Assembly (NCBI RefSeq): GCF_900112175.1 | Contig: NZ_FOYT01000002.1 | Coordinates: 372,001 to 436,000, forward strand | Direction: 5' to 3' | DNA length: 64,000 nt | DNA from: Halogeometricum rufum | GTDB taxonomy: Archaea; Halobacteriota; Halobacteria; Halobacteriales; Haloferacaceae | Shown: one piece after another, positions 2,044 to 45,061 of the stretch | Layout: the number at the start of each line of letters is the position of its first letter | Numbering within the stretch: position 1 is the first letter of the stretch | The notes under the pieces: generated by a model | Seen by the model: only the letters and a program-made list of their open reading frames with translations | Database searches by the model: none | What the model was told of the DNA's origin: nothing | Translations under genes and position numbers: made by a program

Positions 2044-2050
2044 CACAGCG

Positions 2051-4922: not shown

Positions 4923-4973
4923 GCGTCCCGCTCCGGTCGCCGGACCGAACCCCCGGCCGGACCGGCGGACCGA

Positions 4974-6236: not shown

Positions 6237-6326
6237 ACGGGGGTCGGCGGCGGCCTCGCTACCGGCGGTCGGCCGCCGTCTCCGGTCCCCGGCCGGAGGG
6301 AGCGCCGAACAGAACCGCGAGTCGGG

Positions 6327-6506: not shown

Positions 6507-6667
6507 AGCTCCGATTCCGGGGTCGCACGGAAGAATCGCACGATGTGGCCGGGCGGCCGTTCGGCGACCCGCCGCGACCCCCCGACGCCCGCGCGGCGGC
6601 CGTTCCGTGGACTCGTCGCGGTCGACCCCCCGCCTCGCGGTCGGTCTGGCGAACCGACCCGTCGTCG

Positions 6668-6958: not shown

Positions 6959-7459
6959 GGGCCGCCTCCGTGTGTCCCCGCGCGGCGGCGGGCAGTCGTC
7001 GTCTCGTCGAGGTTGGTATCACGAGCGATAGATTCTCCTTCCGTCTCATAACTGTTCGGTCCGATTCTACCGTTCGATAACGAGGGCCGTGGGTGGCGTG
7101 CCGGTTACAGAGGCGCCTTCGCGGTCCGAACCGCGTCTAGAGGCACCGCGACCGCCCGGCGAAGAAGTGACTCGCAGCTCTGATACTCGGCGGCGGTCGA
7201 CGCGGGTCCGTCTGCCGACCCTCCGTCGTTCGTCGGGAGACGCCGTCGTCGACGCCGAAACGGACCCCTACGGTTTCGACCAACCGACGACGCCTCCAGA
7301 ACGACCCGACTGACGCGACGGGCGTAAGCCTCCCGGCCGTCGGGAACGTGACCGTGACCCGCAGTCCGCGCACCGTCGCGCCCGACGGACGACCGGGAGA
7401 ACGCAAAATCGCGGGTGAGGAATCGACGAATTACGCTGCCAGTTCCGTCCGAGAGCCGA
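6959..7459 (+). other. Gene-poor stretch between two minus-strand genes
   Basis: About 500 bases where open frames exist on both strands but none has convincing codon use, start region or recognisable protein. The first 90 bases must hold the promoter of the minus-strand gene that starts at 6958. I see no RNA gene, repeat or insertion-sequence end in it. Confidence 0.5.
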
Positions 7460-7630
7460 CTACCGCGAGGGTGGCAACAGCGTGTCGTTCTCCGCTCTGG
7501 TCGTCGGTCGATACTGACCGGTCGGCGAATCCGCACTCGTCGACGCTCGGCGTTCGGAGAGAGTCGTGACGGTGACCCCCACGACTGCGACTACCGCGGC
7601 CACGATCACTCCGTAGTTCGTGTCGTGCAT
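7460..7630 (-). CDS. 56-aa single-pass membrane microprotein
   Basis: A short open frame begins MHDTNYGVIVAAVVAVVGV and encodes one membrane helix (residues 7-23) followed by a hydrophilic Ser/Thr/Arg-rich tail of about 33 residues. It was accepted because a good TATA box (TTTATACC on the minus strand, 7676-7683) lies about 50 bp upstream, because the hydrophobic segment is cleanly placed after a charged N-terminus, and because no other frame here looks real. No family is recognised. It is alone in its transcription unit and lies in the accessory patch next to tRNA-Val. Confidence 0.45.
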   Translation of the reverse strand: MHDTNYGVIVAAVVAVVGVTVTTLSERRASTSADSPTGQYRPTTRAENDTLLPPSR

Positions 7631-31848: not shown

Positions 31849-31918
31849 ACAGGGGGCACGGTGACTCGTGGTTCAACTACCTCTGGTATAGCTGATGGCT
31901 AAATACTTCTGGATACGC

Positions 31919-31977
31919 GGCTCTATTGAAATCCGTATCTGATGACAGACGATGCGTGCTGAATACAGAGAACGGGT
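31919..31977 (+). repeat. Island repeat copy 1
   Basis: A full-length copy of the roughly 60-base island repeat: left part GGCTCTATTGAAATCC, middle CTGATGACAG, right core GTGCTGAATACAGAG (31956-31970). It lies immediately upstream of the zinc-ribbon regulator gene. Confidence 0.65.
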
Positions 31978-32039
31978 CCATCATTTCAATTGTAGAACAC
32001 AACGCCGATTTTACGTCACCGTCTGTAGTATGTTAACAT

Positions 32040-32999
32040 ATGAATTTCGACCGTGGCGATGATCCTCGGACGCTTCCGCCCGACGAGGCATTCGTGGCAC
32101 TCGGCAACGAGACCCGGATCGAGATCCTTCGGGCCCTCCAGAACGCCGACAGGCCACTCGCGTTTTCGGAACTACGCAACCGGGTCGGTGTGGACGACCC
32201 AGGTCGGTTCAACTACCACCTGGGCAAGTTAACAGGCCACTTCGTCCGAAAGAGTGACGACGGCTACGCGCCGCGCACGGCGGGTACTCGGATCATCGAA
32301 GCCGTCCTCTCGGGAGCGGTCACTGACGCCCCGGTCTTGGAACCGACACGACTCGATGCCCCCTGTCCCTACTGCGGCGCCGACGTCGAGGTTAGCTATC
32401 GAGAGGAACGGCTGCTCACGAGGTGCACCGGGTGTCCGGGCTCGTTTGCCGGAAGCGACACTAGCTTGGCTCCTTTCGGGACTATTGCGCTGTTCGATCT
32501 GCCTCCCGTCGGCCTCGAGGACCGATCTCCGAGGGACATCCTCGACACCGCTTTCCGGTGGACGCACCTCGAATACCTGACGTTAGCCGCCGGTATCTGT
32601 CCGCGGTGTTCCGGTACCGTCGAGCACTCCGTCACCGTCTGTGAGAACCACGAGGCCTCGGAAACCCACCTTTGTGAGTACTGCAACGGACGCTTCGCCG
32701 TAGACGCGACCGCTAACTGCACCACTTGTCCGCGGTACCTCCGGGGAATCCCCTCCGTTTTCCTCATCTCGAAAACCGAGGTCTCACGGTTCCTCACGGA
32801 CCACGGGATCAACCCTGCTAATCCGTCTTGGGACCGCGCACCACCTGCCGTGATGAACTACGACGAAGACGTCTCGAAGACGGACCCGTTCGAGGTGCGA
32901 CTCACGTTCGAGATTGACCGCGACGAACTCACCGTAGCCGCCGACGACACGCTATCGATCGTCGCCGTCGAGCGGAGGGATGCGACGCCGGAAATCTAA
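32040..32999 (+). CDS. Winged-helix regulator with two zinc-ribbon modules (DUF7351 type)
   Basis: A 319-residue protein. Residues 15-75 form an ArsR-like winged helix (FVALGNETRIEILRALQNAD, then FNYHLGKLTGHFV). Two cysteine clusters follow: CPYCGADV...CTGCPG (about 109-138) and ICPRCSG...CENH...CEYCNG...CTTC (about 187-235), both able to bind zinc. The C-terminal strand-rich part is of unknown role. Haloarchaea have many such DUF7351 regulators, ligand unknown. A TATA-like GATTTTACG lies about 27 bases before the ATG, so the mRNA is probably leaderless. It is bounded by island repeat copies 1 and 2. Confidence 0.82.
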   Translation: MNFDRGDDPRTLPPDEAFVALGNETRIEILRALQNADRPLAFSELRNRVGVDDPGRFNYHLGKLTGHFVRKSDDGYAPRTAGTRIIEAVLSGAVTDAPVLEPTRLDAPCPYCGADVEVSYREERLLTRCTGCPGSFAGSDTSLAPFGTIALFDLPPVGLEDRSPRDILDTAFRWTHLEYLTLAAGICPRCSGTVEHSVTVCENHEASETHLCEYCNGRFAVDATANCTTCPRYLRGIPSVFLISKTEVSRFLTDHGINPANPSWDRAPPAVMNYDEDVSKTDPFEVRLTFEIDRDELTVAADDTLSIVAVERRDATPEI

Positions 33000-33025
33000 T
33001 TGAGCCGATAGAAACATCTTTTTCG

Positions 33026-33092
33026 GGCTCTGTTGAAACCCTCAGCTGCTGACACTTTGTTAGGGCAGTGCTGAATACACAGCGCGAGTCGG
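33026..33092 (+). repeat. Island repeat copy 2
   Basis: The best-preserved copy: left part GGCTCTGTTGAAACCC, middle GCTGCTGACACTTTG, right core GTGCTGAATACACAGCGCGA (starting 33068) followed by GTCGG. It begins 26 bases after the stop of the zinc-ribbon regulator. Confidence 0.7.
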
Positions 33093-33110
33093 CCACTAGC
33101 TGATGGATAG

Positions 33111-33803
33111 TCAGGGTTCGCTTGCCTGTCCTGTGGGGTTGTCGTTGAGCCAACGCTCAAGCTCCTGGTGATGCGCTTGCCAGTCGTCGAGCAACCGTTG
33201 ATACTCTTCGCGGGCAGCCTCAGCACCCCTGTAACTCGCGATAGATTTCAATCGATTCTTCATCGCCCTCTGGCAGACTTCGGTTTCATCGTACCAGTTG
33301 TATCCACATTGTACCATCAGATTGTGGAAGGCCGACCAGAAACCGAGACCGAGTGGATTCTCGTCACTCTTCTCGCCAACCGGCGGGAGCGTGTTCTCGA
33401 ACTCACGGTAGTACGCGAGGGCAAACCGTGAGAGGAGTGGTTTCATCCGATACTCCCACTCGCCACCGAGTTCACCTCTCGTGTCTGTTTGTTGGTCAAA
33501 GAGGCTTTCATACTCCTCATCCTCGTACCGGAGGAGACGCCACGACGCCAAGCCGCTATGTTTGTCCCACCGGTCTGCTTCCTGTTCGACGAGTTCGTCC
33601 GCATCGCCATCGAACACCAGCCTCACTAACCCCCCGTCCGGCCCAGATTCATACTCTGCGAACTGTCGATATCGCCAGAACCACCCCGTCTCCCAGTATT
33701 CGTTCGTCTCGAAGCGGTTCCATGCTTCCGTGAGATAGTCCCGGATGAACTGCTCCTCATCTGCGGGCGAATCAAACTCAAATACGAGTGTCGCACCACT
33801 CAT
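33111..33803 (-). CDS. Uncharacterised accessory protein
   Basis: A 230-residue soluble protein that I cannot assign. It begins MSGATLVFEFDSPADEEQFI, has an aromatic-rich block (YWETGWFWRYRQFAEYESG) and a charged helical C-terminal third (EEYQRLLDDWQAHHQELERW). An alternative ATG 12 bases upstream adds MGQF. GC content is lower than that of core genes and codon use less biased, consistent with transfer. It is the only gene between island repeat copies 2 and 3 and points against the repeats' direction. Confidence 0.65.
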   Translation of the reverse strand: MSGATLVFEFDSPADEEQFIRDYLTEAWNRFETNEYWETGWFWRYRQFAEYESGPDGGLVRLVFDGDADELVEQEADRWDKHSGLASWRLLRYEDEEYESLFDQQTDTRGELGGEWEYRMKPLLSRFALAYYREFENTLPPVGEKSDENPLGLGFWSAFHNLMVQCGYNWYDETEVCQRAMKNRLKSIASYRGAEAAREEYQRLLDDWQAHHQELERWLNDNPTGQASEP

Positions 33804-34208
33804 GAACTGACCCATTAGTGTCAAACACATATACTTTCTCCCGACGGGTGGTCCTACGAGACTGGTCTGTGTCTGCTGAGAGTAGCGACCAGTAACGGGT
33901 TTCAACTCTTTGTTGCATACTCTCTCTGTATCGGTCACACCGGTACTGACAGGAATCGAGTAATCCGCGAAGACGCTGCTGAATAGAAGGCGCGGATTCG
34001 GCACCGGCGATCTTCTCCGACTACAACTGCTCGGACGGCAACACCGAACTCCCCTGTGGGTCACGCTACAGGGACAGACTCCCCATCACGTGACTGCGGG
34101 CCAGTGAATGTGCTACCATTTCTGAAGACAAATCCGACACATATATTTCAAAAATTTGAACGTAATTCGCGTATAGTGAACAGTCTGTATGTCAACGAAA
34201 ACACATAA
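33804..34208 (+). other. Intergenic accessory DNA
   Basis: About 400 bases of lower GC between two accessory genes. They contain island repeat copy 3 and, near 34141-34180, AT-rich promoter-like sequence (ATATATTTC, GTATAGTG) for the plus-strand genes that follow. No coding frame is convincing. Confidence 0.5.
33945..34001 (+). repeat. Island repeat copy 3 (diverged)
   Basis: The middle TACTGACAGG and right core GCTGCTGAATAGAAGGCGCG are recognisable; the left part is lost or too diverged. Same orientation as the other copies. Confidence 0.55.
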
Positions 34209-34601
34209 GTGAAACGGTTTACAAACTTACACTTGATGTCGGGATGCTCTAAAGAAGACAAAAAGGACGGTGCGATGCGAGCACTGTATGAGCACCTTGA
34301 TGGTGTGGACCCCGTCGATCTCCTTCCGGAGCAGTTCAGGGAGTCACGGCGGTTGGTTCAAGTGACCTTGGAGGGGTCGGGAGACCTATCTGAGGAAGAA
34401 CGAAGGAGAAGTGAGGGCTACTGGCAGCAGGCTAGCATATACGGCCTCGTTGACAGTTGTATCCGGCCTCCAGAGGGTGATACGATCATGATACTTTCAG
34501 TCACCGATGAAGATGAGGCCCAACAATTGGTGCGGAGTGATCCGACGGTCAGCGATGGAGATGTTGAACTTGGTCGAACGAAGTTGTTGTTCGAGGAATA
34601 G
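34209..34601 (+). CDS. Uncharacterised small protein, YCII-like
   Basis: A 130-residue protein with low-GC, weakly biased codon use. The second half (GYWQQASIYGLVDSC, DTIMILSVTDEDEAQQLVRS, DPTVSDGDVELGRTKLLFEE) follows the pattern of the YCII/dimeric alpha-beta barrel fold: a strand, a helix containing DEAQQL and a DPxxxxG turn. That is inference from pattern, not a firm family match. The start is the GTG at 34209 or the ATG at 34236. It lies 30 bp before a 21-codon ORF and the ATP-grasp pair, so it may belong to the same transcript. Confidence 0.6.
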   Translation: MKRFTNLHLMSGCSKEDKKDGAMRALYEHLDGVDPVDLLPEQFRESRRLVQVTLEGSGDLSEEERRRSEGYWQQASIYGLVDSCIRPPEGDTIMILSVTDEDEAQQLVRSDPTVSDGDVELGRTKLLFEE

Positions 34602-34631
34602 GCGATTTCAAATTTGTTTTAGAAATATAAA

Positions 34632-34697
34632 ATGGAAATACACCGCGTAAGCGTGAACGACACCCATACGATCCAGCGAGGTGCTGTTTTTATATGA
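34632..34697 (+). CDS. 21-codon ORF coupled to the ATP-grasp pair (possible leader or precursor peptide)
   Basis: A short frame MEIHRVSVNDTHTIQRGAVF plus one Ile ends in a TGA that overlaps the ATG of the next gene (ATGA). The same four-base overlap joins the next two genes, so three frames are chained. It could be a leader peptide, a substrate peptide for the ATP-grasp enzyme, or chance. The AT-rich DNA directly before its ATG (TAGAAATATAAAA) could instead be the TATA box of the following gene, in which case this ORF would not be transcribed. Confidence 0.3.
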   Translation: MEIHRVSVNDTHTIQRGAVFI

Positions 34698-35548
34698 ACT
34701 CCTCGAAATTCGTACTTCTAATCAACGCACGAGAAGCGATTGAAGAGATATTGAGCCCAATCATTAAAGAGCGCGGGTTGACACCTTTAGCTGTCTCTGC
34801 ACACGATTTTCTCGCTGCCGAGTATAAGTTCGAGTGTGGTGACGTTCCAACCACCGGATGGATCAACTTCCCCGAACACGGCAAGCGTATAAAGTTACAG
34901 TCTATCGCGGGCAGCTTTGCAGGGTGGTTAAACTTGGACATCGACAGTGATTCTATGTCTCAATTCGAGTTCCAAGAAATATTGGCGTTTATCGCGTTCG
35001 TCCGGCAAAATGCAGGACGCGCGGTCAACCCACCGAACGAAAACATGATTTCGACAAATTGTGGGTCCCTCCCCGAACAGTGGGAAACACTACGGTCAAC
35101 GGATGCAAGCGTACGCATTCCCTCTTGGCGCCTTGACGGCCCAGCCAACCCTCCGATTAGAAACGATGAGATAGCCGTACGTGATATCATGAATCCGCGC
35201 TTACGTAAGAAAAATGATGTATATGAGAATGATAAAAATAGCTTGTTAGTTGAAGAGCCTCGCGGCGTTCTCTCCAGCTGTGCATTTGTAGGTCAAAACC
35301 AACATCATGTACGCGTATCGGAAAATGGGGTGGAACCCGTGGACGTGCTCTCGGACACCCATGATCGATTTACCGAAGTAATCCAAGCCTTACGTCGTAT
35401 ATACTCTCTGGACTATGGAGAGATTTCCTACGCTTATCTCGGAGATGTCCTATTCTGGTCCGTCGCGCCACACCTCCCTGTAGAACATGCCGGTAAAGAT
35501 TCATTTCAGCCATTAATCGAACGTCTGGTTGAGGAATTCACAATATGA
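34694..35548 (+). CDS. Degenerate ATP-grasp-like partner protein
   Basis: A 284-residue protein that follows the layout of a RimK/MvdC-type ATP-grasp protein but lacks the catalytic residues. An N-terminal alpha/beta domain (KFVLLINAREAIEEILSPII) is followed by AVNPPNENMISTNCGSLPEQ and SVRIPSWRL, the positions where active enzymes have NpxxxxxNK and vPxT. The C-terminal part, SSCAFVGQNQHHVRVSENG and LDYGEISYAYLGDVLFWSVA, mirrors the nucleotide-binding half, with WSVAPHLP replacing the usual ExNPxP. No lysine or Glu/Asn metal pair is in place. It overlaps the next gene, a complete ATP-grasp, by four bases; a heteromeric complex is likely. Low GC suggests transfer. Confidence 0.6.
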   Translation: MNSSKFVLLINAREAIEEILSPIIKERGLTPLAVSAHDFLAAEYKFECGDVPTTGWINFPEHGKRIKLQSIAGSFAGWLNLDIDSDSMSQFEFQEILAFIAFVRQNAGRAVNPPNENMISTNCGSLPEQWETLRSTDASVRIPSWRLDGPANPPIRNDEIAVRDIMNPRLRKKNDVYENDKNSLLVEEPRGVLSSCAFVGQNQHHVRVSENGVEPVDVLSDTHDRFTEVIQALRRIYSLDYGEISYAYLGDVLFWSVAPHLPVEHAGKDSFQPLIERLVEEFTI

Positions 35549-36477
35549 AACATCCTCTGCATGAGGGGGTGATTGACCGAAAAGAAGGCCGGATTAGCAT
35601 CACCGATGGCACTTCCGATTCGGCACCTGACCAGTCCATTCGTCATCGCTATCTCGGAACGGGTTGTCCGGTCGTCGTAGCAGCACTGTCGGACGACACT
35701 GCCACTCACTTTTTCAAGATATGCCGCCAAGAGGATTACCCTATTATATGGCTTAGTTATGAAGATTTGTACAACAACTCGATAGCGTTTGATGCCTTCA
35801 GAAGTGCCATCGACAATGCCCCTGGAATTTACTTCCGTGAATCCGGAGATCAAAGGAAATCTGATACCGCTGTAGACGCAGCGATCCGGGCCGTAGTGCG
35901 GCGGAACGAGAACCTGTTGGGCCCTCCACGCTCTGCCACGAACTCGAACAAGCCCGTCCATCTTGATAATCTTCGTACTTCTACGGAGTCATCAGTTACC
36001 GTGCCGCGAACGCAAATTGTATCACGAATACAGAACGGCCGGAGTAAGGTTATGAAAGCAATCAGTGGCTTTCCAGCCTTTACTATAGACGCTGGCCCTC
36101 ATGAGGGCTGCGACGGTGTGGGACCGCTTCTACTGCAGGAGTACTTAACCGGAGATGAGTTGAGGATTCACGCTGTGGATTCGGACTTCGTCAGTCACTT
36201 ACTCAAAAAAAATGATGGTATAGACTATCGCGTCACGGGCTTGGCTGGATTGGAACGAGTGTCCATATCCTCCGGTGAACAAGACGCACTCCGTGATATG
36301 ATGGAGGCCGAAGGCGTACGCTTCGGCGGCATTGACCTCATTCGCAGCAAGAACCGTCTCATAGTCCTCGAACTCAACCCGATGCCGGGATACCATCCCT
36401 ACGAAGCGCGTGACGATGACAATCCAATCACCGAGATGATATATAAAAGTCTTATCAATAATGAGTGTGCGGACTAA
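35545..36477 (+). CDS. ATP-grasp ligase, RimK/MvdC-like
   Basis: A 310-residue protein with the main ATP-grasp features: NSNKPVHLDNL with K136, VPRTQIVS, a second lysine near K169/K171 in SKVMKAISG, LLLQEYLTGDELRIHAVDSD with E199 and R207, and the metal site D264 in FGGIDLI plus E276 and N278 in LELNPMPGYHPYE. The N-terminal third is a divergent pre-ATP-grasp domain (GIYFRESG). Such enzymes join a carboxylate to an amine, alcohol or thiol with ATP, often on peptides. The substrate is unknown. It is the downstream half of a coupled pair with a degenerate homologue, in low-GC accessory DNA. Confidence 0.75.
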   Translation: MKHPLHEGVIDRKEGRISITDGTSDSAPDQSIRHRYLGTGCPVVVAALSDDTATHFFKICRQEDYPIIWLSYEDLYNNSIAFDAFRSAIDNAPGIYFRESGDQRKSDTAVDAAIRAVVRRNENLLGPPRSATNSNKPVHLDNLRTSTESSVTVPRTQIVSRIQNGRSKVMKAISGFPAFTIDAGPHEGCDGVGPLLLQEYLTGDELRIHAVDSDFVSHLLKKNDGIDYRVTGLAGLERVSISSGEQDALRDMMEAEGVRFGGIDLIRSKNRLIVLELNPMPGYHPYEARDDDNPITEMIYKSLINNECAD

Positions 36478-37098
36478 GTTTGGGTCTATTGGTGGCTATC
36501 TATACGGGGTAACGCTTATTTGTGAATTCTGGAGTAGTTTGAGATAGAACAGCTACTTTTATGAATTAAATTGTTTGAAATGGCAATTCGCGTTCTCAAC
36601 AAAAGATTGATGCAATTAATTTCCTTTTGACATCGAAATCATAATACTGAACACATCCTCTGTATCTCGCATGCGCCTTCTAACAGTACCTGAGCAAATT
36701 CCAGTGGACGTGATGCATACAGGGCGCGAGTCGGTCACGAGCGATGGTCGCTTTCGCGCTGATCGGGCCGGTCGATACAGAGGACGTAATCAATAAACGA
36801 CTTCGTCAACTTTCGCAACGACAACAACGCCGACCGAGAGGTCGGCGTCGACGGTGATTGGCAGGGCCACGCTGAGTGACTGAGCGACGGCTACTGAAGC
36901 CGCCGGAGATGTACTCCTTGGGGAGAGATGTTCGTGATCGAATCGGAGCGGTCGAATCACGGCCCCGGACACTCCGCCAGCTGTCACCGCACAGCCGAGT
37001 CACGCGCCGGACCTCCTGCCCGGGGCGCCGACGGACCGTTGAGGTTCTCGGACCTGTTCGACCGCGTGACTGATACGTACGTACGGTCTGGATCCTCT
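36478..37098 (+). other. Gene-free accessory stretch
   Basis: About 620 bases. The first 180 are AT-rich and non-coding in appearance. The middle holds island repeat copy 4. From 36784 to 36987 the minus strand has a 65-codon frame with a hydrophobic, Val-rich end (LSVGVVVVAKVDEVV) that may be the tail of a decayed gene. The last 100 bases precede the membrane-protein gene. Confidence 0.5.
36710..36734 (+). repeat. Island repeat copy 4 (core only)
   Basis: Core GTGATGCATACAGGGCGCGA followed by GTCGG, the same tail as copy 2. It lies between the ATP-grasp operon and the membrane-protein gene, in the same orientation as the rest. Confidence 0.6.
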
Positions 37099-37707
37099 AT
37101 GCAACTGCTGGATGCACTCTTTGGCCCTGTCGAACGATATTCGGATGCGATCCCCGCGAGAATCCACGGTATTGTCGCCGTTGTCTCGTTTTGCACCTTT
37201 GTCGGGGTGATTGCTCTGGGATTCGTTCCGGTGACCCGCCGGATCGAGACGTCTGGCTATTCCACCGCAGATTTGCAGGCCGCAACGAGCCGGGCGGAAG
37301 TGGACACGATACTGCAGGCCTTCGAACCGGTCATGGAATCCGTGATGCTTCTCTCAGTTCTCGATTACATCTTCATCGTCGCAGGGTTCTTCCTGTTTTT
37401 CTCACTCCATTCGCTCTCTCTGAAGACGCTAGCAGTCCACAACCGGCTAGTCCTGATACCGAAGGTTGGGATGGTGTTGACTGTCGTCTCTCGACTCCTC
37501 GATTCGCTGGAGAACCTCTGGGTCATCCTCATCTACACGAATCCCGACGACTACGCGACCATCCTGATTGATCTCATGAACACCTCCGAATCGTTGAAGT
37601 GGATGATCGTCAGCATCGGATATCCGACACTCGGCATCGCCATCGTGCTTGCACTGCTGACCCGGTTTACCTCACTGTTCGACGGTCGCTCAGAGAGTCC
37701 ACAGTAA
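37099..37707 (+). CDS. Four-helix accessory membrane protein
   Basis: A 202-residue membrane protein with four helices: IVAVVSFCTFVGVIALGFVP, LSVLDYIFIVAGFFLFFSLH, a third around PKVGMVLTVVSRLLDSLENL and a C-terminal one (IGYPTLGIAIVLALLTRF). Between helices 1 and 2 is a 45-residue external or internal loop. The ATG at 37099 was preferred over the open frame beginning at 36928, whose N-terminal residues have poor codon use. No family is recognised. It is bounded by island repeat copies 4 and 5. Confidence 0.7.
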   Translation: MQLLDALFGPVERYSDAIPARIHGIVAVVSFCTFVGVIALGFVPVTRRIETSGYSTADLQAATSRAEVDTILQAFEPVMESVMLLSVLDYIFIVAGFFLFFSLHSLSLKTLAVHNRLVLIPKVGMVLTVVSRLLDSLENLWVILIYTNPDDYATILIDLMNTSESLKWMIVSIGYPTLGIAIVLALLTRFTSLFDGRSESPQ

Positions 37708-37748
37708 GCAGCATCGGAAATTTCAATCGGTGAGCTGTTTCGGTAGCA

Positions 37749-37773
37749 GTGCTGAATATCGAGGATGCGGATT
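37749..37773 (+). repeat. Island repeat copy 5
   Basis: Core GTGCTGAATATCGAGGATGC followed by GGATT; it begins 42 bases after the membrane-protein stop. Upstream bases (GAGCTGTTTCGGTAGCA) are also similar to the middle of copy 2. Confidence 0.6.
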
Positions 37774-38096
37774 CACATCCACTGTCCAACCCCGGTCAAG
37801 CGCCAACACGTACATCACGCCGCCTCCACGAGTCGCTCGGCCAACGTTTCGAGTGTGGTCGGCATGCTGAACTCACCCTCTGAGTGTTGCACACCGCTCC
37901 TGACAGAACTTGGTGAGGTTTCTGGGGTCGTGCGGAATACAGAGCGCGAGTGTCGCAGACATGCTTCTCGAATCCACGAGACATGTCTCTGTATTTTAAG
38001 CTTCGTCAGGTCAGTCACAGGAACTCGAAACGAGCGTATTTTCATGGCTTTCACTAGCTACACTCTTATCGTTGGAGACTCTACCTTCAACCAACG
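37774..38096 (+). other. Gene remnants between repeat copies 5 and 6 and promoter of the TA module
   Basis: No intact gene. On the minus strand near 37812-37865 a short frame reads MPTTLETLAERLVEAA, stops, and is followed by ATG with YVLALDRGWTVD, which could be what is left of a small antitoxin/toxin-like pair. Copy 6 of the repeat follows, then about 140 bases before the HTH gene. Confidence 0.35.
37930..37954 (+). repeat. Island repeat copy 6
   Basis: Core GTGCGGAATACAGAGCGCGA followed by GTGTC, one of the closest matches to the consensus. CTGACAG about 35 bases upstream matches the repeat's middle part. It precedes the toxin-antitoxin genes. Confidence 0.65.
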
Positions 38097-38468
38097 ATGT
38101 CGATAGACAGGGAAACATTCGAGAACACAAGCGAGGAAGAACTTACGGGGCTGTCCGTCCCTGACCAAGTCCTCGGATTCCTTGCCGCTCACGACGATAG
38201 GGCATTTGAGGCTCGTGAGATTGCAGCACAAACAGACCTTGACGAGGGTGCGGTGAGTACTGCACTGACGCGCTTGAAGCAACGCGAACTCGTTGAACAC
38301 AAGGCGACGTACTGGGCCGCGACGACCGACGAGGAACGGCTTCAATCGTATAGTGGATACGAGCGAGCGACAGCACTCTTCAACGAACGACTGGGAACCG
38401 AGAACAAGCATGAGTGGCGGGAGCACGCACCGAAAGAAGACCATCCAAGTCTGAGGGACGAGGAGTGA
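38097..38468 (+). CDS. HTH antitoxin-like protein, partner of PemK/MazF
   Basis: A 123-residue winged-helix protein: VLGFLAAHDDRAFEAREIAA, then the recognition helix region LDEGAVSTALTRLKQRELVE, then a wing and a charged C-terminal tail rich in Glu, Lys and His. MarR-like HTH proteins of this size are common antitoxins of haloarchaeal PemK-type toxins; they would repress the operon and neutralise the toxin through the tail. Its stop overlaps the GTG of the toxin gene by four bases (GTGA). Confidence 0.8.
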   Translation: MSIDRETFENTSEEELTGLSVPDQVLGFLAAHDDRAFEAREIAAQTDLDEGAVSTALTRLKQRELVEHKATYWAATTDEERLQSYSGYERATALFNERLGTENKHEWREHAPKEDHPSLRDEE

Positions 38469-38818
38469 CGGACGAAGAGAAACCGCCAACGTACGAACCC
38501 GGAGATGTTGTCTACGGTGACGACCCGTTCAAAGGTGACGAGAACGCGCGTCCGTGGCTCGTCATCTCGAATCACGAAGGACAACCATTCCATGGCGACC
38601 AGTACATTTCGGTAACGTTGACGACGAAGACGTGGCACGAGGAGTTTATCGAGATTCCTGACACGGGTTGGGTTCGTGGTGGAACTCCCGACGAGAGCTG
38701 TATCGTCCCGTGGGGCGTCCAGTCACTCGGAAGCGGAGACATCGACTACTGGCAAGGGACGCTCAACGACGCACTTGTCGAGGACGCAATTCAGTCGTTG
38801 ATTGACTATCTCAAATAG
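38465..38818 (+). CDS. PemK/MazF-family toxin
   Basis: A 117-residue PemK/MazF-like protein: YEPGDVVYGDDPFKG at the N-terminus (normally GdvvxvdfpptxG), ARPWLVISNHEGQPFHGDQY, VTLTTKTW and the end SLGSGDIDYWQGTLNDAL. Members are sequence-specific mRNA endoribonucleases. The start is a GTG that overlaps the antitoxin stop, a standard arrangement for such modules. It is bounded by island repeat copies 6 and 7. Confidence 0.85.
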   Translation: MTDEEKPPTYEPGDVVYGDDPFKGDENARPWLVISNHEGQPFHGDQYISVTLTTKTWHEEFIEIPDTGWVRGGTPDESCIVPWGVQSLGSGDIDYWQGTLNDALVEDAIQSLIDYLK

Positions 38819-38844
38819 CACTCATCCGATAACGGCGACACGGT

Positions 38845-38866
38845 GTGCTGAATAGAGAGCGGATAT
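38845..38866 (+). repeat. Island repeat copy 7
   Basis: Core GTGCTGAATAGAGAGCGGAT, beginning 26 bases after the toxin stop, the same distance at which copy 2 follows the zinc-ribbon regulator. Confidence 0.6.
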
Positions 38867-38902
38867 CTTTCAGACTCGCCCGGCTCATGATGTGTTGGTC
38901 AG

Positions 38903-38912
38903 AAAATATATT
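38903..38912 (+). promoter_or_regulatory. TATA box of the Tat lipoprotein gene
   Basis: AAAATATATT lies 24-33 bases before the ATG at 38936, the position expected for a leaderless haloarchaeal transcript. Confidence 0.6.
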
Positions 38913-38935
38913 GTTGGGATTATCCACTACACTCT

Positions 38936-39292
38936 ATGGCAGTCTCCGGCCAACAATGTGCGACACAGAAAATCAACTCAATTTCCCGACGAACCATGAT
39001 TTCACTAATTTCGGGAATGGTGCCACTATTGTCTGGGTGCGTGCAGACAACGACGGGTCACCTCAACGGCATGGAAGTGACCACGCTCCCCCCAGACGCG
39101 ACAGTTGTCACAGCATCTGATGACCGGATTGCGGACGTGGAGGCGATACAATCCGTGGTACGGCAGGCGACTGAGCGAGATGGAGAGATTGCGACCGTTG
39201 AAATAAGCGGGAGAGAAGCGGACAGGACAATCGACCAACTCGAAAAACTCTCGTATTACGACAGTAACTCTTCGAACTACCGTTCTGGCTGA
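38936..39292 (+). CDS. Small Tat lipoprotein, uncharacterised
   Basis: A 118-residue protein with a twin-arginine signal (SRRTMISLISGMVPLLSGC) ending in a lipobox cysteine at about residue 35. The mature part is about 83 residues: VTTLPPDATVVTASDDRIAD, a helix VEAIQSVVRQATERDGEIAT, and a tail that includes LEKLSYYDS. It is predicted to be membrane-anchored outside the cell. No family is recognised beyond similar short haloarchaeal lipoproteins. A TATA box 24-33 bases upstream fixes the start. Confidence 0.7.
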   Translation: MAVSGQQCATQKINSISRRTMISLISGMVPLLSGCVQTTTGHLNGMEVTTLPPDATVVTASDDRIADVEAIQSVVRQATERDGEIATVEISGREADRTIDQLEKLSYYDSNSSNYRSG

Positions 39293-39318
39293 TACATCGA
39301 GTATCAAAACCAGGTAGT

Positions 39319-39342
39319 GGTTGTTGAATATGCGGTGCAAGA
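39319..39342 (+). repeat. Island repeat copy 8 (weak)
   Basis: GGTTGTTGAATATGCGGTGC matches only the central TTGAATA and the GCG part of the core; listed because of its position 26 bases after the lipoprotein stop, as for copies 2 and 7. Confidence 0.3.
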
Positions 39343-39347
39343 CTAAC

Positions 39348-39401
39348 CCTCTATATTCAGCGCGAAACTCCTGTCAGTATCTGAGTATTTCAACAGATCC
39401 C
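39348..39401 (-). repeat. Island repeat, inverted copy at the right edge
   Basis: Read on the minus strand this is a nearly full-length copy: GGATCTGTTGAAATAC, then CAGATACTGACAGG, then GCGCTGAATATAGAG. It is the only copy in the opposite orientation and marks the end of the low-GC region; high-GC genes begin just beyond it. The left part looks like terminal sequence of haloarchaeal IS5-type elements. Confidence 0.6.
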
Positions 39402-39521
39402 TTTCTCGATATTCGCTTACAGAAACATCATTCTAAAAACATCTTTTGGCCACGAAGTCGTGACTGCAGACGTAGCCGGAGGAAGACGGCTTCCGCTCCG
39501 GTTCGGAAGAGATCCCCGGAG

Positions 39522-41246
39522 ATGACCATGGCCGAAACAACGACTCGCGTCGACCTCGATCCGCGCATCGACACCTACCACTTCTACGAGCGGGAGTGGG
39601 AGGGATACGAACAGCTTATCGACGCCTTCGAGCACGACGTCCCCGACCAGTTCGACCTCGCCACCTACCTCTGTGACCGGTGGGCCGACGCTGACCCGAA
39701 TCGGGTGGCGGTCCACGCCCTCGGCGCGGACGGAACAGAGACCAGATATACGTACGGCGACCTTCGCCGTGACGCAAACCGGCTCGCGAATCATCTGGCC
39801 GATGCCGGCATCGATGCCGGAGACCGGATCGCCGTCCATGGGGGTCAGAAGGTCGAATACCTCCTCGCCCACCTCGCCGCCTGGAAGCTCGGAGCGATCT
39901 CCGTGCCGCTCTCGCTGTTGTTCGGCCCCGACGGGTTGGAATATCGCCTCGCTGATAGCGGCGCTTCCGCCTTCGTCGTCGACGAGGCAGCCCTCCCGAC
40001 TCTCCGGGCGGTCGAACCGGACCTCGACGAATTGGAGACGAAGGTCGTGGTCGGTGACGGCCCGACCGAGGGCAACGAGGCCGCCTTCCACGATGCGATT
40101 GCAGACCGCTCGACCGACGTCGAGACCGCCACGACAGACGCCGACGACCCCGCCGTCGTCATGTACACGAGCGGGACGACCGGCCCGCCGAAGGGGGTCG
40201 TCCACGCTCATCGGAGTGTGCTCGGGGTGCTCCCGGGCCAGATCCTGACCAGGTACAACATGGACGTCAGAGCCGGCGACACGCTCTACACTCCCGGCGA
40301 GTGGTCCTGGAGTGGACCACTTTTCGACGTTATCGTGTCCGGGCTCTACCTCGGCGTCCCAATCGTGGGGGACGCAGACCCGGGGTTCGACCCGGAGGAG
40401 ATGCTCGCGCTGATCGACCGTTTCGACGTCTCTATCGTCGGTGCCCCGGCGACCGTCTGGCGGGCGCTGATGCAGGTACCGGAGGCGAGCGAACGCTACG
40501 ACCTCGGGAGCCTCCGCGTCGTCTTCAACGGTGGGGAGGCGCTCGGCGGGTCGATCGTCGACTGGTTTCACGAGACGATCGGCGGCGTGGCCGTTCACGA
40601 GGTCTACGGACAGACCGAGACCGCCGCGGCGGGTGCAGGCGACTGTGAGGCGCTCGGCATCGACCACCGCGATGGGCACATGGGCAAACCCGTCCCCGGT
40701 CTGGAGATCGAGGTACTAGACGTCGACGACGCCGATCCGCTCGGGACCGGGGAGGTCGGCGAACTCGCCGTTCGCTACGAGGGTAATCCGGTTTGCTTCC
40801 TCGAGTTCTGGAACGCTCCCGAGAAGACTGCTCGGCGTCTCGACGATGGCTGGCTACGGACCGAGGACCTCGGTTCGAAGACCGACGACGGTTACGTGTC
40901 GTTTCACAGCAGGAAGGACGACGTCATCAACTCCTCCGGCTATCGGATCGGTCCCGCCGAGATCGAGGAGTGCCTCGCCGGACACGACGCCGTCGCCGAC
41001 GCGGGGGTGATCGGAGTTCCAGACGAGATGCGCGGCGAAGTCCCGAAGGCGTTCGTCGTGCTCGCGGAGGGGAACGAGGCCACCGACGAACTGTCGGAAA
41101 CGCTCCGGGGCCACGTCGAGTCGCGGCTGGCGAAGTACGAGCGCCCCCGCGAACTCGAGTTCGTCTCGGAGCTCCCGACGACGACGACCGGGAAGGTGCG
41201 CAGACACGACCTCCGGGTGCGCGAGGGACTGGTCGAAGTGGAGTGA
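39522..41246 (+). CDS. Acyl-CoA synthetase (AMP-forming)
   Basis: A 574-residue member of the ANL superfamily that activates a carboxylic acid to acyl-AMP and then acyl-CoA. The P-loop is YTSGTTGPPKG (residues 215-225); FNGGEALGG, VYGQTETAAAGAGD, WLRTEDLGSKTDDGYVSF (conserved Asp) and the C-terminal lysine motif TTTGKVRRHDL are all present. It most resembles medium-chain/acetyl-CoA synthetase-like enzymes. The ATG at 39522 (or 39528) gives the usual length; the open frame upstream runs into the island repeats. It overlaps or nearly touches the FAD-oxidase gene downstream. Confidence 0.9.
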   Translation: MTMAETTTRVDLDPRIDTYHFYEREWEGYEQLIDAFEHDVPDQFDLATYLCDRWADADPNRVAVHALGADGTETRYTYGDLRRDANRLANHLADAGIDAGDRIAVHGGQKVEYLLAHLAAWKLGAISVPLSLLFGPDGLEYRLADSGASAFVVDEAALPTLRAVEPDLDELETKVVVGDGPTEGNEAAFHDAIADRSTDVETATTDADDPAVVMYTSGTTGPPKGVVHAHRSVLGVLPGQILTRYNMDVRAGDTLYTPGEWSWSGPLFDVIVSGLYLGVPIVGDADPGFDPEEMLALIDRFDVSIVGAPATVWRALMQVPEASERYDLGSLRVVFNGGEALGGSIVDWFHETIGGVAVHEVYGQTETAAAGAGDCEALGIDHRDGHMGKPVPGLEIEVLDVDDADPLGTGEVGELAVRYEGNPVCFLEFWNAPEKTARRLDDGWLRTEDLGSKTDDGYVSFHSRKDDVINSSGYRIGPAEIEECLAGHDAVADAGVIGVPDEMRGEVPKAFVVLAEGNEATDELSETLRGHVESRLAKYERPRELEFVSELPTTTTGKVRRHDLRVREGLVEVE

Positions 41247-41254
41247 CCCAACCG

Positions 41255-42652
41255 ATGTCGGATCCCTCATCCGTCGACGAGCCGACGCTCCGAACTCTGG
41301 ACGGACGCGTGCTGGGCGAGGTTCTCCGCTCGGGAGACGACGGCTACGACGATGCCCGGACGGTCTGGAATGCGGCTATCGACCGGTACCCACGAGCAAT
41401 CGTCCGACCGCAGGGGGCGGCAGACGTGATCGCCGCCGTCGACGTCGCCCGGGAGCAGGACCTCCTCCTCTCGGTCAAGGGCGGCGGACACAACGTCGCC
41501 GGTCACGCGGTCTGCGACGACGGACTGACGATCGACTGCTCGCCGATGGACTGGGTCCGCGTCGACCCCGACGCGAGGAAGGCCCGTGCCGGCCCCGGGG
41601 CGACGTGGGGCGACTTCGACCACGAGACGCAGGCGTTCGGCCTCGCCACGACCGGCGGTGGCGTCTCGACGACTGGGGTCGCGGGGCTCACGCTAGGTGG
41701 TGGGAACGGCTTTCTGGCCCGCAAGCACGGCCTGACGGTGGACAACCTCCGGGCGGTCGATGTCGTCACCGCCGAGGGGGAACTCGTCCACGCCAGCGCC
41801 GAGGAGAACCCCGATCTGTTCTGGGCCGTCCGGGGCGGCGGCGGGAACTTCGGCGTCGTCACCGCCTTCGAATACGATCTCCACCCGATCGGTCCCGACG
41901 TACTGGCAGGGCGACTCATCTACCCGTTCGAAGACGCCGCGGCGGTGCTCCGACGCTACCGTGACTTCGTGACTGGCGCACCGGACGAGGTCAACTGTCT
42001 GGCTGGAATCGCCTCCGCCTCGGAGGAGTCCTCTGGACTCAGCCTCGAACCGGGGACACCATTCGTCCAGTTGCTCGTCGTATATGCGGGAGATCCTCAG
42101 GACGGCGAGGAGGCGCTCCGACCGTTACGGACGTTCGGCGACCCGATAGCCGACGAAGTGTGTCTGCGGCCCTACACCGAGTTACAACGGCTCCTTACCG
42201 AATCAGCCGCGCCGGGCTATCGGAACTACTGGAAGTCGGACTACCTCGTCGGACTGCCGGACGAGGCGATCGACGCCGTCGTCGAACACTGCGACCCGTT
42301 TCCCTCGGATCGGAGCTCGGTGTTCTTCGAGACGATGGGTGGGGCCATCAACCGCGTCGAGCCCGATGCAACGGCGTTCCCCCACCGCGACGCTGCCTTC
42401 TCGGTCACGGCGTGGGCCAGGTGGACCGACCCCGCGGTAGACGACGACCACCGGACGTGGGCGCGGGGACTCTCCGCCGCGTTGGAATCACACACTACCG
42501 ATGGGGTCTACGTGAATTTCCTCTCGCGCGAGGGGGACGAGCGAGTCGAGGCGGCCTATGGTGACAACGGCGACCGTCTCGCGGCGGTGAAAGCCGACTA
42601 CGACCCCGACAACGTGTTCCGCATGAACCAGAACGTCGAACCCGTCGACTGA
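41255..42652 (+). CDS. FAD-linked oxidase, berberine-bridge type
   Basis: A 465-residue flavoprotein with the PCMH-type FAD domain and a C-terminal BBE segment. The His that binds the flavin 8-alpha position is H79 in VKGGGHNVAGHAV; GVAGLTLGGGNGFLARKHGL and WAVRGGGGNFGVVTAFEY are cofactor motifs; the C-terminal YDPDNVFRMNQNV is the BBE signature. The usual second covalent Cys is absent, so attachment is probably single. Such enzymes oxidise alcohols, sugars or ring systems with oxygen. A GTG at 41243 overlapping the upstream stop is an alternative start. Confidence 0.9.
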   Translation: MSDPSSVDEPTLRTLDGRVLGEVLRSGDDGYDDARTVWNAAIDRYPRAIVRPQGAADVIAAVDVAREQDLLLSVKGGGHNVAGHAVCDDGLTIDCSPMDWVRVDPDARKARAGPGATWGDFDHETQAFGLATTGGGVSTTGVAGLTLGGGNGFLARKHGLTVDNLRAVDVVTAEGELVHASAEENPDLFWAVRGGGGNFGVVTAFEYDLHPIGPDVLAGRLIYPFEDAAAVLRRYRDFVTGAPDEVNCLAGIASASEESSGLSLEPGTPFVQLLVVYAGDPQDGEEALRPLRTFGDPIADEVCLRPYTELQRLLTESAAPGYRNYWKSDYLVGLPDEAIDAVVEHCDPFPSDRSSVFFETMGGAINRVEPDATAFPHRDAAFSVTAWARWTDPAVDDDHRTWARGLSAALESHTTDGVYVNFLSREGDERVEAAYGDNGDRLAAVKADYDPDNVFRMNQNVEPVD

Positions 42653-42696
42653 ACGGCTGCTAGCCGTAGCTATCAACTATTTAGCCGTCCACTCGC

Positions 42697-43506
42697 TCAC
42701 GTTCCCGGCAGTCTCTCCGGGTCGAGCGGCTCGGACTCCATACGGTAATCGTCGTAGAGCGATTCGGCCCATTCACAGACGGCCGTGTTTTCGGTTTCCA
42801 GCAGCCCGGGCCCTACCCATTGATTCTCGTCGATGTGGCCCAACCAGAGCACGACCGAGTGATCGATGATGTGCATGCTGAGCGGAATGGTCCCCGGGTA
42901 GGTCCATATCGAATCGGCGAACGAATGCCACGGATTTGCTCGTTCTGCATCTTCGACCAGTTCGTCGATGAATTCGGCTTCGATGATTGCCTCGAACTCC
43001 AGTTGCCCCTTCTCGACCAGTTCCGCGAGCGTCCGGACGAATATATCCGGAGCGTTCTGTGTGAGTCCCCGGTACGTGTTCCCGGCCCGATACAGTTCCA
43101 GCGCACGATTTAGGTGAGCCTCCGGCCAGTTTTCGGTCGGAATCGTGACTCGGGCGTCGCGTAGATGCCGGATGTCTAGTTCGTGAGCCGGCTCTGGAAG
43201 GTGATTCAACACCTCCCCGAGTTGTTGAATTCCTTCGACGGTCTGCTGGTAGGCGCGAAACTCCTCGATCATGACTTCACCCACGTACGTGAGTTCGTAC
43301 CGACTGCCCGCTGAGTCGATCCACCCACGCGACTCACCTTCGTCGAGTACACGTGCGACTGTCGACCGCGACGCTCCGGTTCGCTCGGCGAGGTCACTGC
43401 TGGTGGTCGGTCCGTCGGAAAGCGCCTCGAATATCCGTACGCTGTTCGCCGAGTTAGCGAACACTCGAATCGCGTCCAGAGCAGCTCCCGTGTCACTTGA
43501 TGTCAT
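42697..43506 (-). CDS. Transcriptional regulator, winged helix plus FilR1 domain
   Basis: A 269-residue regulator. An N-terminal winged helix (SVRIFEALSDGPTTSSDLAE, then ASRSTVARVLDEGESRGWI) is followed by a C-terminal FilR1-like (DUF1724-type) domain that begins near HELDIRHLRDARVTIPTEN and includes TIPLSMHIIDHSVVLWLGH. The same architecture is repeated in the gene at 45062. It is convergent with the FAD oxidase gene and divergent from the SnoaL-like gene, so it may control either flank. Confidence 0.85.
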   Translation of the reverse strand: MTSSDTGAALDAIRVFANSANSVRIFEALSDGPTTSSDLAERTGASRSTVARVLDEGESRGWIDSAGSRYELTYVGEVMIEEFRAYQQTVEGIQQLGEVLNHLPEPAHELDIRHLRDARVTIPTENWPEAHLNRALELYRAGNTYRGLTQNAPDIFVRTLAELVEKGQLEFEAIIEAEFIDELVEDAERANPWHSFADSIWTYPGTIPLSMHIIDHSVVLWLGHIDENQWVGPGLLETENTAVCEWAESLYDDYRMESEPLDPERLPGT

Positions 43507-43693
43507 ATGACAAACTACGGGGAACCCTCACTAAGAGCTGTCCCGAGCACCGGTTCGCCTTGACGACGGTAGAGCAGTACGAGTCGTCTGTTGTTTGTCT
43601 CACGTGCTACGAGCGTTTTCAGGGTCTGGGAACGTTGTCACGGAGTAAGAATAACTCTCTGACCGACAGAGACGAAGACGGGAGGATCGAACC

Positions 43694-44125
43694 ATGTCGG
43701 AGACCAGCACCACCGAGCGCGAACAGCTCTTGAACACCTATCAGGAGTACGAGGATCTATGGAACGGAGACTTTTCGAAGTTGGACGTGGTTAGCGAAGG
43801 GATCACGTTCTACAACCCCGGCGTGCCCGATGGGAAGATTCACGGGCGCGAGGCTTTCGAGGCGTACCTCCGCGGTGTTCGGTCAGCGTTCCCTGATTGG
43901 TACGTCGACGCCGACGACCTACTCGCGGAGGGGAAGATCGTCATGAAAGAGTGGACAGTGACGGCGACACACGAAGGGGAATACAGGGGTATCCCCCCGA
44001 CCCACCGCGAGATCGAGATCAAGGGTATGGCGAAGGATGTCGTCAGGAACGGGGAAGTGGAGGCCGCTCGACTCTACTACGACCCGCAGGAGTTGAGCGA
44101 GCAACTGGGTCTTACTGAAGAGTAA
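43694..44125 (+). CDS. SnoaL-like/ester cyclase-family protein
   Basis: A 143-residue alpha+beta barrel protein of the SnoaL/NTF2-like type: LLNTYQEYEDLWNGDFSKLD, HGREAFEAYLRGVRSAFPDW, KEWTVTATHEGEYRGIPPTH and the strand EVEAARLYYDPQELSEQLGL. SnoaL relatives close polyketide rings or bind small hydrophobic ligands; many are of unknown function. It starts 187 bp from the divergent FilR1-type regulator. Confidence 0.85.
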   Translation: MSETSTTEREQLLNTYQEYEDLWNGDFSKLDVVSEGITFYNPGVPDGKIHGREAFEAYLRGVRSAFPDWYVDADDLLAEGKIVMKEWTVTATHEGEYRGIPPTHREIEIKGMAKDVVRNGEVEAARLYYDPQELSEQLGLTEE

Positions 44126-45061
44126 CGACGTCGTCAGTATCTCGGCTCGGCTGACAGACACGTGCTCTCCATTCGGGACCTCCATTTTAGACTTTCACGA
44201 GAGTCGTCAGGAGATGCGCCCTGACTACGATTCGTCTCAAGAGAAACCGACCCGATTCGTACTCTACGAGGGACATCATCGCTTGGACCCTTCTGGAACG
44301 GTGAAACCGCATACCGAACAGAAGAGCCGTTCAGCCGTCCATGCGGCGTGCATCGCCTCTATCCATCGATCGCTCCGAACACTAGGCAGGACACACTCCA
44401 CCAGCACGGGTTCAACACTGGATCGGAGATCGACCATTTTCTCTCGGCCTATCGGGACCTCCAGTAGATGCTGAGGAGAACATGCATCGCGGTTATGGTA
44501 TCTCTCATGCTCTCGCTACGAGATGTGCGGTTCCCACTCGCTACTCGGAATCGCTCCCATTTCGGTACCGAACAGTAGTTGCTTGGGCACAACTGTCGAC
44601 GAGGAAACGCAGTAACCGACTCGCGCCCTGCATCCTGCAGGACCGCCGAAAGATATCACCGATTGAGAGTTTCAACAACGCCGGATACGCGGTGCCCGGA
44701 CGAGCCGAGAACAGCGACGGGGTGCCTCCGTCGACGCGGGGGCGGGAGCGGTGACGAGCGTTCGCGAGTCCCGCACGACGCCATCCCACGTCGCGTCGGA
44801 ACCGTCGTCAGATGCCCGGTCCGTGTGACTCGTCCCCTGCCCGCCCCACACGTTCTCTGTGCTCTCTCGCCCCTAATTCGCTCTCACTCGATAGCGAGTG
44901 TCGGACGAACGGAGCGGCTATACAACTAGTGGGCGGTGGACGCGGGGACCGACTCGCCGACCGGACGGCGAGAGCGGCTAGAAGCACCGAGTCGCGGCGT
45001 CGGGAGCGCCGACGAAGCGTGTGAGGGACCGACAGGTGGTCGGGAGCCGTCCCGTCGCTCG
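44126..45061 (+). other. About 0.9 kb of degenerate DNA
   Basis: No intact gene is visible. Around 44390-44467 one frame spells LHQHGFNTGSEIDHFLSAYRD before a stop, which resembles the C-terminus of a class-V aminotransferase/cysteine desulfurase. The part from 44480 to 45060 has short open frames without convincing codon use. The stretch separates the accessory genes from the core block beginning at 45062. Confidence 0.5.
44390..44467 (+). pseudogene. Possible remnant of a class-V aminotransferase C-terminus
   Basis: The frame ending at the TAG at 44465-44467 reads HQHGFNTGSEIDHFLSAYRD, the kind of sequence found at the end of cysteine-desulfurase-like enzymes (YNTxxEIDxFL). No further homologous sequence was recognised upstream, so this would be a short decayed fragment. 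The match rests on pattern only. Confidence 0.25.

Follow-up and report, generated by a model that had tools for sequence, protein, structure and literature searches.

The window analyzed here is a stretch of 64,000 nucleotides from the haloarchaeon Halogeometricum rufum (contig NZ_FOYT01000002.1, positions 372,001 to 436,000 of the forward strand), in which a first-pass annotation, made from the sequence alone, had described a cassette-like array of short genes separated by a repeated site. A haloarchaeal cassette transposon occupies the region, and a second one, low in GC, has been inserted into it. A profile scan of the window located terminal repeats, here called tips, at 31919 (+), 33026 (+), 39400 (-) and 44682 (-). 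The outer pair delimits an element of 12,764 bp (31919–44682) with identical 8-mers, GGATACGC, beyond both tips (8/8), and the inner pair delimits an element of 6,375 bp (33026–39400), whose flanking 8-mers, CTTTTTCG and CTTTCTCG, agree at 7/8 and which contains three equally spaced copies of a junction, here called J. The GC content of the inner element is lower than that of the outer one, and its insertion point lies just after the helix-turn-helix (HTH) regulator of the outer element. This anatomy, the nesting of one insertion in another and the modularity of the cassettes are observed directly. The reading as a whole, namely nested cassette transposons whose units are moved by an IS5-family transposase and whose cassettes are exchanged at J by recombination, is considered probable.

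The repeated site was recognized through a core 20-mer, which has four matches in the window at up to three mismatches, against 0.01 expected from shuffled sequences, and 16 matches in the genome of H. rufum at the same threshold, where a reversed-pattern control gave 0. The copies that had been assigned to the plus strand and to intergenic positions are all borne out, at 31956, 33068, 33976, 36710, 37749, 37930 and 38845, with a weak one at 39319. As a complete feature, the 20-mer stands in part: its sequence is real, but it is only a portion of a transposon end or of J. When the flanks of the copies were aligned, a tip of 30 bp emerged, GGCTCTGTTGAAAYCCTCAGnnnCTGAYAG, followed by 7 or 12 nt and then by the core, which lies 37 or 42 nt inside the tip (GGCTCTGTTGAAAYCCTCAG...CTGAYAG) or forms one side of J. 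Complete units have two ends unlike each other; core42 begins 42 nt from the tip and usually runs on as ..GCGCGAATCGGTCAC, and core37 begins 37 nt from the tip and usually runs on as the palindrome TGCTGAATACA-GAGGG-TGTATTCAGCA. The profile scan also revealed minus-strand junction halves overlooked earlier, at 33940, 36674 and 37894, plus a copy at 39365 at the right end. The view that no copy lies outside the low-GC region was mistaken, as a minus-strand core42 with its tip at 44608–44682 closes the outer element, and the weak copy at 39319 is, by eye, not a separate site but part of the right-hand core37, namely the inner arm of its interrupted palindrome. A distance of about 26 bases from the preceding stop codon, claimed for three copies, was found for copies 7 and 8; for copy 2, it is the tip (33026) that fits and not the core. 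The observation that no integrase or transposase lies in the window agrees with tblastn searches using the IS5-type transposase and two integrases (best E 0.58; other families were not screened). A second end sub-type with the same tips occurs at loci L075, L084, L099, L100 and L101, its 42-side reading ..GTGGTCAATACAG or similar and its 37-side ..CTGAAACAGC.., with 8/8 duplications at L075, L084 and L099.

J is a segment of about 103 bp made up of core37 reversed, 37 nt and core42. Each of the three copies in the window consists of a minus-strand core37 and a plus-strand core42 lying 34 apart in profile coordinates, which corresponds to 37 nt between the facing cores. A strict J pattern, in which gaps of 25–55 were allowed, matched in three of 170 genomes of the family, and all matches had one gap length. 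Among divergent core pairs up to 150 apart, 39 of 47 are exactly 34 apart, two are at 35 and six at 81–110, the pairs coming from nine loci picked for holding cores, some of them fetched around matches to the gap-25–55 pattern. Twenty further array loci yielded 90 J with scores of 14–127, reversed sequence never scoring above -33, and 86 of these 90 lie in the main orientation of their locus. The consensus of 143 J is TGctgaAtacA.cCTCTGTATct.GCACgccg.T.CTGACAG....tg.G.AGtTcgct.ag....TGCTGaATAcAg.GCGCgtaTc.g.CA, the 34 genomes behind it being labels under which named and unnamed records may coincide. A sequence-only model, for which 37 J of spacing 34 were used out of 39 (L107 15905/15939 and L108 12100/12134 were omitted), detected J at E ≤0.001 in 332 of 392 genomes of the order and in 80 of 95 genera, with up to ten candidates scored per genome. 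The exact J pattern, searched in one genome per species (84,980 species), gave 15 stretches, all haloarchaeal; two J queries against 72,556 plasmid records gave 26 and 22 matches, again all haloarchaeal, and phage records gave no match to the one J used as query. No consensus base pairs were obtained over 37 J (0 pairs), and the folding z-scores of six copies against shuffles were 0.56, 0.92, 0.23, -3.39, -1.57 and -0.33, four of the six folding no better than shuffles.

The features of the two elements are as follows, those without a strand being unstranded:

31911–31918: left target-site duplication (TSD) of the outer element, GGATACGC, 8/8 with 44683–44690
31919–31990, plus strand: 37-type end of the outer element, tip 31919–31948, core from 31956
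32040–32999, plus strand: HTH regulator (DUF7347/DUF7351, Pfam), cargo of the outer element
33018–33025: left TSD of the inner element, CTTTTTCG, 7/8
33026–33100, plus strand: 42-type end of the inner element, tip 33026–33055, core42 from 33068
33111–33803, minus strand: cassette 1, an orphan protein without Pfam or NCBIfam match
33906–34008, plus strand: junction J1 (core37 reversed, 37 nt, core42)
34209–36477, plus strand: cassette 2, three open reading frames (ORFs; 34209–34601, 34694–35548 and 35545–36477), the last with a RimK-like ATP-grasp domain
36640–36742, plus strand: junction J2
36928–37707, plus strand: cassette 3, a membrane protein (by eye), no Pfam match
37707–37768, plus strand: decayed 42-type end (by eye), immediately at the cassette 3 stop codon, core42 from 37749
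37860–37962, plus strand: junction J3
38097–38818, plus strand: cassette with a MarR-type HTH (38097–38468) and a PemK/MazF-like toxin (38414–38818; weak match, below cut-off), by Pfam
38845–38877, plus strand: core42 with a decayed 42-type end, without recognizable tip, profile score 24.7
38936–39292, plus strand: cassette, small lipoprotein-like ORF (by eye), no Pfam match
39319–39400, minus strand: 37-type end of the inner element, tip 39371–39400, core37 with about 15 nt interrupting its palindrome
39401–39408: right TSD of the inner element, CTTTCTCG
39321–41246, plus strand: ORF with an AMP-forming ligase, cargo of the outer element (read by eye, the true start lying downstream)
40793–42652, plus strand: ORF with an FAD-linked oxidase, cargo of the outer element (read by eye, the true start lying downstream)
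42697–44125: HTH ORF 42697–43506 (minus) and SnoaL-like ORF 43694–44125 (plus), both by eye, cargo of the outer element
44608–44682, minus strand: 42-type end of the outer element, core42 44608–44642, tip 44653–44682
44683–44690: right TSD of the outer element, GGATACGC

The modularity of the cassettes is evident from comparisons between genomes. For instance, an insertion whose flanks and outer ends are common to genome G004 and to G002, another species of the genus, contains a single cassette in G004 and three different ones in G002, where two of the J spacers are identical. A cassette encoding a RidA-like protein (by eye) is 93.8% identical between G045 and G057, its homology stops in the cores, and its two neighbors are interchanged: a left-hand tip and a right-hand J in one genome correspond to a left-hand J and a right-hand tip in the other. 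Over 2.7 kb, as far as the core42 of a J, the sequences of Halorubrum sp. Atlit-26R and Halorubrum distributum (L208/L209) are 98.5% identical; beyond that point, the cassettes are different. Similarly, a cassette of G039 ends in a tip and its H. distributum counterpart runs into J, the switch lying inside core37. Among 23 shared blocks, all four ends lie within 60 nt of a core in seven, compared with 0.016 expected from random shifts; this set omits the listed same-genome pairs, pairs with L214 (identical to L149), L100/L101 and L208/L209, and it counts the same DNA twice (L002 and L112), two of the blocks lying within the H. rufum genome. The description of the region as a cassette-like array has held up, in that the edges of units in other genomes fall, in several cases, at the repeat.

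Arrays outside the window can be far longer. In G057, from another genus of the same family, an array of 35.9 kb (L107, L108) extends between an intact 37-type and an intact 42-type tip; it contains 25 J or more, which share a single site orientation, and most of its cassettes have one gene. The 113 inter-site intervals have a median of 862 bp (quartiles 560 and 1535), and by the main-ORF rule, 100 contain one ORF, 12 none and one contains two. Relative to J, 52 cassette ORFs read with the site and 50 against it. The Pfam scan covered 101 of 102 ORFs, one wrong-strand ORF having been dropped, and assigned the 101 proteins to 97 families, the commonest of which was found in four proteins; one of the 101, L149:10222-11040, is an IS5-type transposase.

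Several cassettes of the inner element deserve comment for their content. In cassette 2, the ORFs 34694–35548 and 35545–36477 overlap, and the second is an ATP-grasp protein weakly similar to MvdC peptide maturases, so that the cassette may possibly be a small peptide-modifying system. A block of cassette 3 (37068–37763) has an 85% identical copy in the same genome (L112 11563-12258), and the homology stops 15 nt into the core. The ORF of the MarR-type HTH overlaps that of the PemK/MazF-like protein, a 72% identical block is present at L111 16384-17077, and the cassette at 38097–38818 is a possible toxin-antitoxin pair.

The same tips frame units elsewhere, including one-gene units without a transposase outside the window. 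In 39 tip-framed units, the flanking 8-mers agree at seven or more of eight positions in 28, of which 20 are 8/8, although the units were selected by their tips and partly by TSD similarity, and 28 of 39 is not an unbiased rate. One 37-offset core together with one 40/42/44-offset core occurs in 28 of the units, five have one recognizable core and six have none, the last comprising two transposase units and four 125-bp elements resembling miniature inverted-repeat transposable elements (MITEs). The latter elements (L013 103-227, L086 3687-3811, L097 301-425 and L098 301-425) have the same tips and perfect 8-bp duplications and are core-less. An own transposase was seen only in L081 and L088, and L007 has a remnant-like end; no intact transposase gene was seen in the 33 of the 39 units that have cores. 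The outcome that would have spoken against the cassette idea, copies found mostly as ends of intact insertion sequences (ISs), was thus not seen, since the 33 core-bearing units show no intact transposase and the two transposase units are core-less.

The protein encoded by L081 and L088 has 273 amino acids and a DDE_Tnp_1 domain, and it belongs to the IS5 family by NCBIfam NF033579 (transpos_IS5_2), above the cut-off. Its relatives were detected by protein search in 127 of 167 genomes of the family, and a 17-mer of the tip (up to one mismatch) in 131 of 148, with a reversed control of 0. In 15 of 30 transposase loci (L163-L192), the same tips with an 8/8 duplication frame the transposase gene, and 29 of the 30 have a tip 52 bp outside the start of the transposase. 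The 15 units span 1195–1765 bp versus a gene of about 820 bp, which leaves space for a variable passenger. Some transposase units do contain cores: core42 is present in three of the 15 (L176, L177 and L191), the other 12 being without a core; L088 has neither core nor J. In addition, L149 (9082–11092) contains, between its tips, a 42-type end, an ORF, J, a second ORF and an IS5-type transposase with 78% amino acid identity to that of L081, and its TSD is 8/8 (ACTACTTA). It is identical over 8 kb to a Halovenus aranensis record (L214) and is a possible autonomous cassette transposon. The multi-cassette unit L145, with two J, likewise has a TSD of 8/8 (GGCGAGTG). The perfect duplications around L145 and L149, both of which are multi-cassette units, indicate that an array, once finished, can be transposed as a whole. 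IS6/IS26 elements, suggested as the source of the ends by the 8-bp duplication and a similar tip, were rejected: PF13610 was not found in the H. rufum genome, and none of 30 IS6-type loci was framed by the tips.

On the reading of nested cassette transposons, two enzymatic steps are inferred. Whole units, with any number of cassettes, would be moved by an IS5-family (NF033579) transposase that recognizes the tips, mostly in trans; this transposase is the candidate because of the shared tips, the duplication length and its co-residence with J in L149. Cassettes would be acquired, lost and exchanged through enzymatic recombination, probably site-specific, at J or its cores. Locus L001 of the H. 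rufum genome, described below, where an integrase gene lies beside an array with the same cores and another junction, suggests that tyrosine recombinases can carry out this step. As observed, the cassettes are framed by inverted cores (core42 and core37), and within arrays a J of fixed length joins neighboring cassettes in place of tips. Since the genes face both ways, the cassettes presumably carry their own promoters. In a wider form, it is proposed that haloarchaea have evolved, independently of integrons, a general means of cassette capture and exchange at a double-stranded J of about 100 bp through a trans-acting recombinase, the arrays being exported via IS5-type tips as whole transposons and the cores acting as a shared adaptor, compatible with a tyrosine-integrase platform as well; this broader proposal is favored by a narrow balance of the evidence. 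In the comparisons made, the system as a whole departs from the families that it resembles. The idea can be tested directly, since joint, cores and tips are all short, defined sequences.

Several observations weigh against this interpretation. The movement of the elements is deduced from sequence comparison. No clean empty site for the window element was found in two species of the genus, where the left flank is conserved and the right flank is not. The search for one at L003, which covered four species of the genus plus another place in the H. rufum genome, also failed, and in both cases the reason was a lack of synteny in the right flank. A TSD of the array of about 36 kb in G057 was looked for at its flanks and not found, and no duplication was found at other tip pairs around J (L132, L138 and L111). 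In the H. rufum genome, the single transposase hit at E 1e-30 or better is a frame of 183 amino acids; therefore, the window elements are probably not being moved now. As regards the enzyme acting at J, no tyrosine recombinase was found by a motif regular expression, which is not exhaustive, in the 38 loci with at least two J, and the 25 commonest of the 97 Pfam families in the 101 cassette ORFs include no integrase or transposase. Relatives of the IS5-type transposase, mostly distant (36–48% amino acid identity), occur in five of 26 array loci (L133, L136, L141, L149 and L150), and so the transposase itself could also act at J. As to the cassettes, in 16 of the 23 shared blocks at least one of the four ends lies away from a core, for example, where only a gene is conserved. 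Finally, the copy of J with a z-score of -3.39 folds clearly better than shuffles, and the J spacers resemble the inner part of the tip, from which it follows that J could partly be a degraded end.

The competing explanation with the most in its favor, though still an unlikely one, is that tyrosine recombinases run the whole system, J and a longer junction being the attachment (att) types of two integrase lineages, much like an integron platform, and the tips only transposing the finished array. It draws on locus L001 of the H. rufum genome (C1:421000-430000; stretch 1547–7598), where cassettes with the same cores are joined by that longer junction, present in three copies as CTTCCGAGAA-7 nt-CTCCCGGA or close variants. 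The last L001 cassette ends at a related site, GTTTCCGAGAA-TGGTCCA-TTCTCGTAA, about 100 bp before an ORF of 207 amino acids that reads away from the array. On its own, this ORF gives a weak Pfam match to PF00589 (E 0.022), but when it was aligned with four relatives, R, K, HxLR, W and Y, the tyrosine-recombinase catalytic set, were found to be kept in all five proteins, and the alignment profile matches PDB sequences of XerC-like proteins, XerA and, weakly, IntI4. The relatives were examined in four plasmids and the site in Haloferax mediterranei, which has an 85% identical integrase gene with the same site upstream and no cassettes there, a tip-framed unit lying about 1 kb away. L001 looks like an integron-like integrase platform that takes up the same cassettes, IntI membership aside. 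An integrase gene with an adjacent insertion site and stacked cassettes was seen at this one locus only. The explanation is weakened by the absence of any J of the 37-nt type at L001 (0 copies), by a J spacer without consistent inverted arms in the alignment (by eye), and by the negative regular-expression search in the 38 loci given above. A second ORF with a tyrosine-recombinase-like motif (202 amino acids; L007 336-944, C1, minus strand) was noticed in the same genome by regular expression only.

It could also be supposed that arrays arise only from repeated adjacent transposition of tip-framed units, without recombination at J, which would then be the remnant of decayed or deleted touching tips. 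The 37-nt J spacer has the length of the 37-type tip region and the motif CTGACAG/CTGTCAG in common with the tips, decayed ends are visible by eye inside the array of the window (37707–37768 and around 38845), and nested insertion is itself seen there. Such an origin nevertheless appears improbable in view of the exact spacing in 39 of 47 core pairs, a consensus of J's own over 143 copies and the lack of any 42-type tip remnant inside J (by eye); moreover, the two Halorubrum genomes match up to the core42 of J and then diverge, and cassettes swap J for a tip at the core. The first-pass alternative of leftover IS ends is itself partly correct, as the outermost ends are IS5-type tips that produced 8-bp duplications.

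Ordinary homologous recombination or gene conversion between cores, with J conserved for insulation, transcription or DNA packing, has still less to recommend it and is held to be quite improbable. The conserved cores measure only about 15–20 bp, cassettes common to different genera stop at cores in several cases, and, as the genes face both ways, J has no fixed place relative to promoters. Least probable of all, to the point of near dismissal, is a canonical integron, or a cluster of attC sites without an integrase (CALIN), in an archaeon, for although the tandem, mostly one-gene cassettes, the one main site orientation, the mobile blocks and the single well-folding copy among six J recall such arrays, as did the integron-like layout noted at first, there is no common fold, gene orientation is not consistent, no integrase was recognized at J arrays by motif regular expression, and the GTT/AAC boxes of attC sites were not seen by eye in the J consensus.

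In a full-text literature search, whose coverage of subscription papers and preprints was thin so that absence is not proof, no description of this system was found, and no integrons were described in haloarchaea in the literature searched. Ghaly et al. (2022; PMC9668308) reported integrons from archaea, in 75 genomes belonging to nine phyla, and a text search of that paper found no word beginning with 'halo'. The cassette units can be compared with several kinds of mobile elements. In mobile insertion cassettes (MICs), IS ends and target duplications frame a passenger gene without a transposase. Single-cassette units are like them in having IS ends and a passenger gene without a transposase, and they are presumed to be moved in trans; transporter ISs (tIS) with passenger genes, as far as the available part of PMC7986276 describes them, likewise have IS ends and target duplications around the passenger. 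Unlike in MICs and tIS, one unit may hold many J-joined cassettes, and cassettes change units at cores. The units also resemble haloarchaeal MITEs/SMRs, which are transposase-free and have inverted repeats and a duplication length in common with an IS. In Haloquadratum, the ISH2-type is named, in the available part of PMC3119063, as the one MITE with a likely protein-coding ORF, and the cassette units differ from the haloarchaeal MITEs described there in that cargo is common and stacked in arrays. With IS5-family elements (NF033579), the units share the 30-bp tips and the 8-bp duplications; unlike most of these elements, they have cores or J, and mostly no transposase was seen.

The idea of a cassette array has its precedent in integrons. 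Like integron arrays and CALINs, J arrays consist of tandem short cassettes with a conserved site at each joint and one main orientation; blocks are common to genomes, the sites are more alike within a genome and an integrase is often missing. The cassettes are discrete blocks bounded by the site, as in the seven of 23 shared blocks. Since CALINs also have no integrase, a missing IntI alone excludes only complete integrons. Unlike attC sites, J is conserved as double-stranded DNA, hardly varies in length and has no common fold, and unlike integrons, J arrays have genes facing both ways, IS5-type tips often with 8-bp duplications and no integrase recognized by regular expression. J, present in 332 of 392 genomes and reaching at least 25 copies in one array, gives access to numerous cargo genes that lack annotation and a clear target in the search for a new recombinase. 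Integrons are the textbook store of gene cassettes, and the haloarchaeal arrays offer a route by which haloarchaea can exchange genes.

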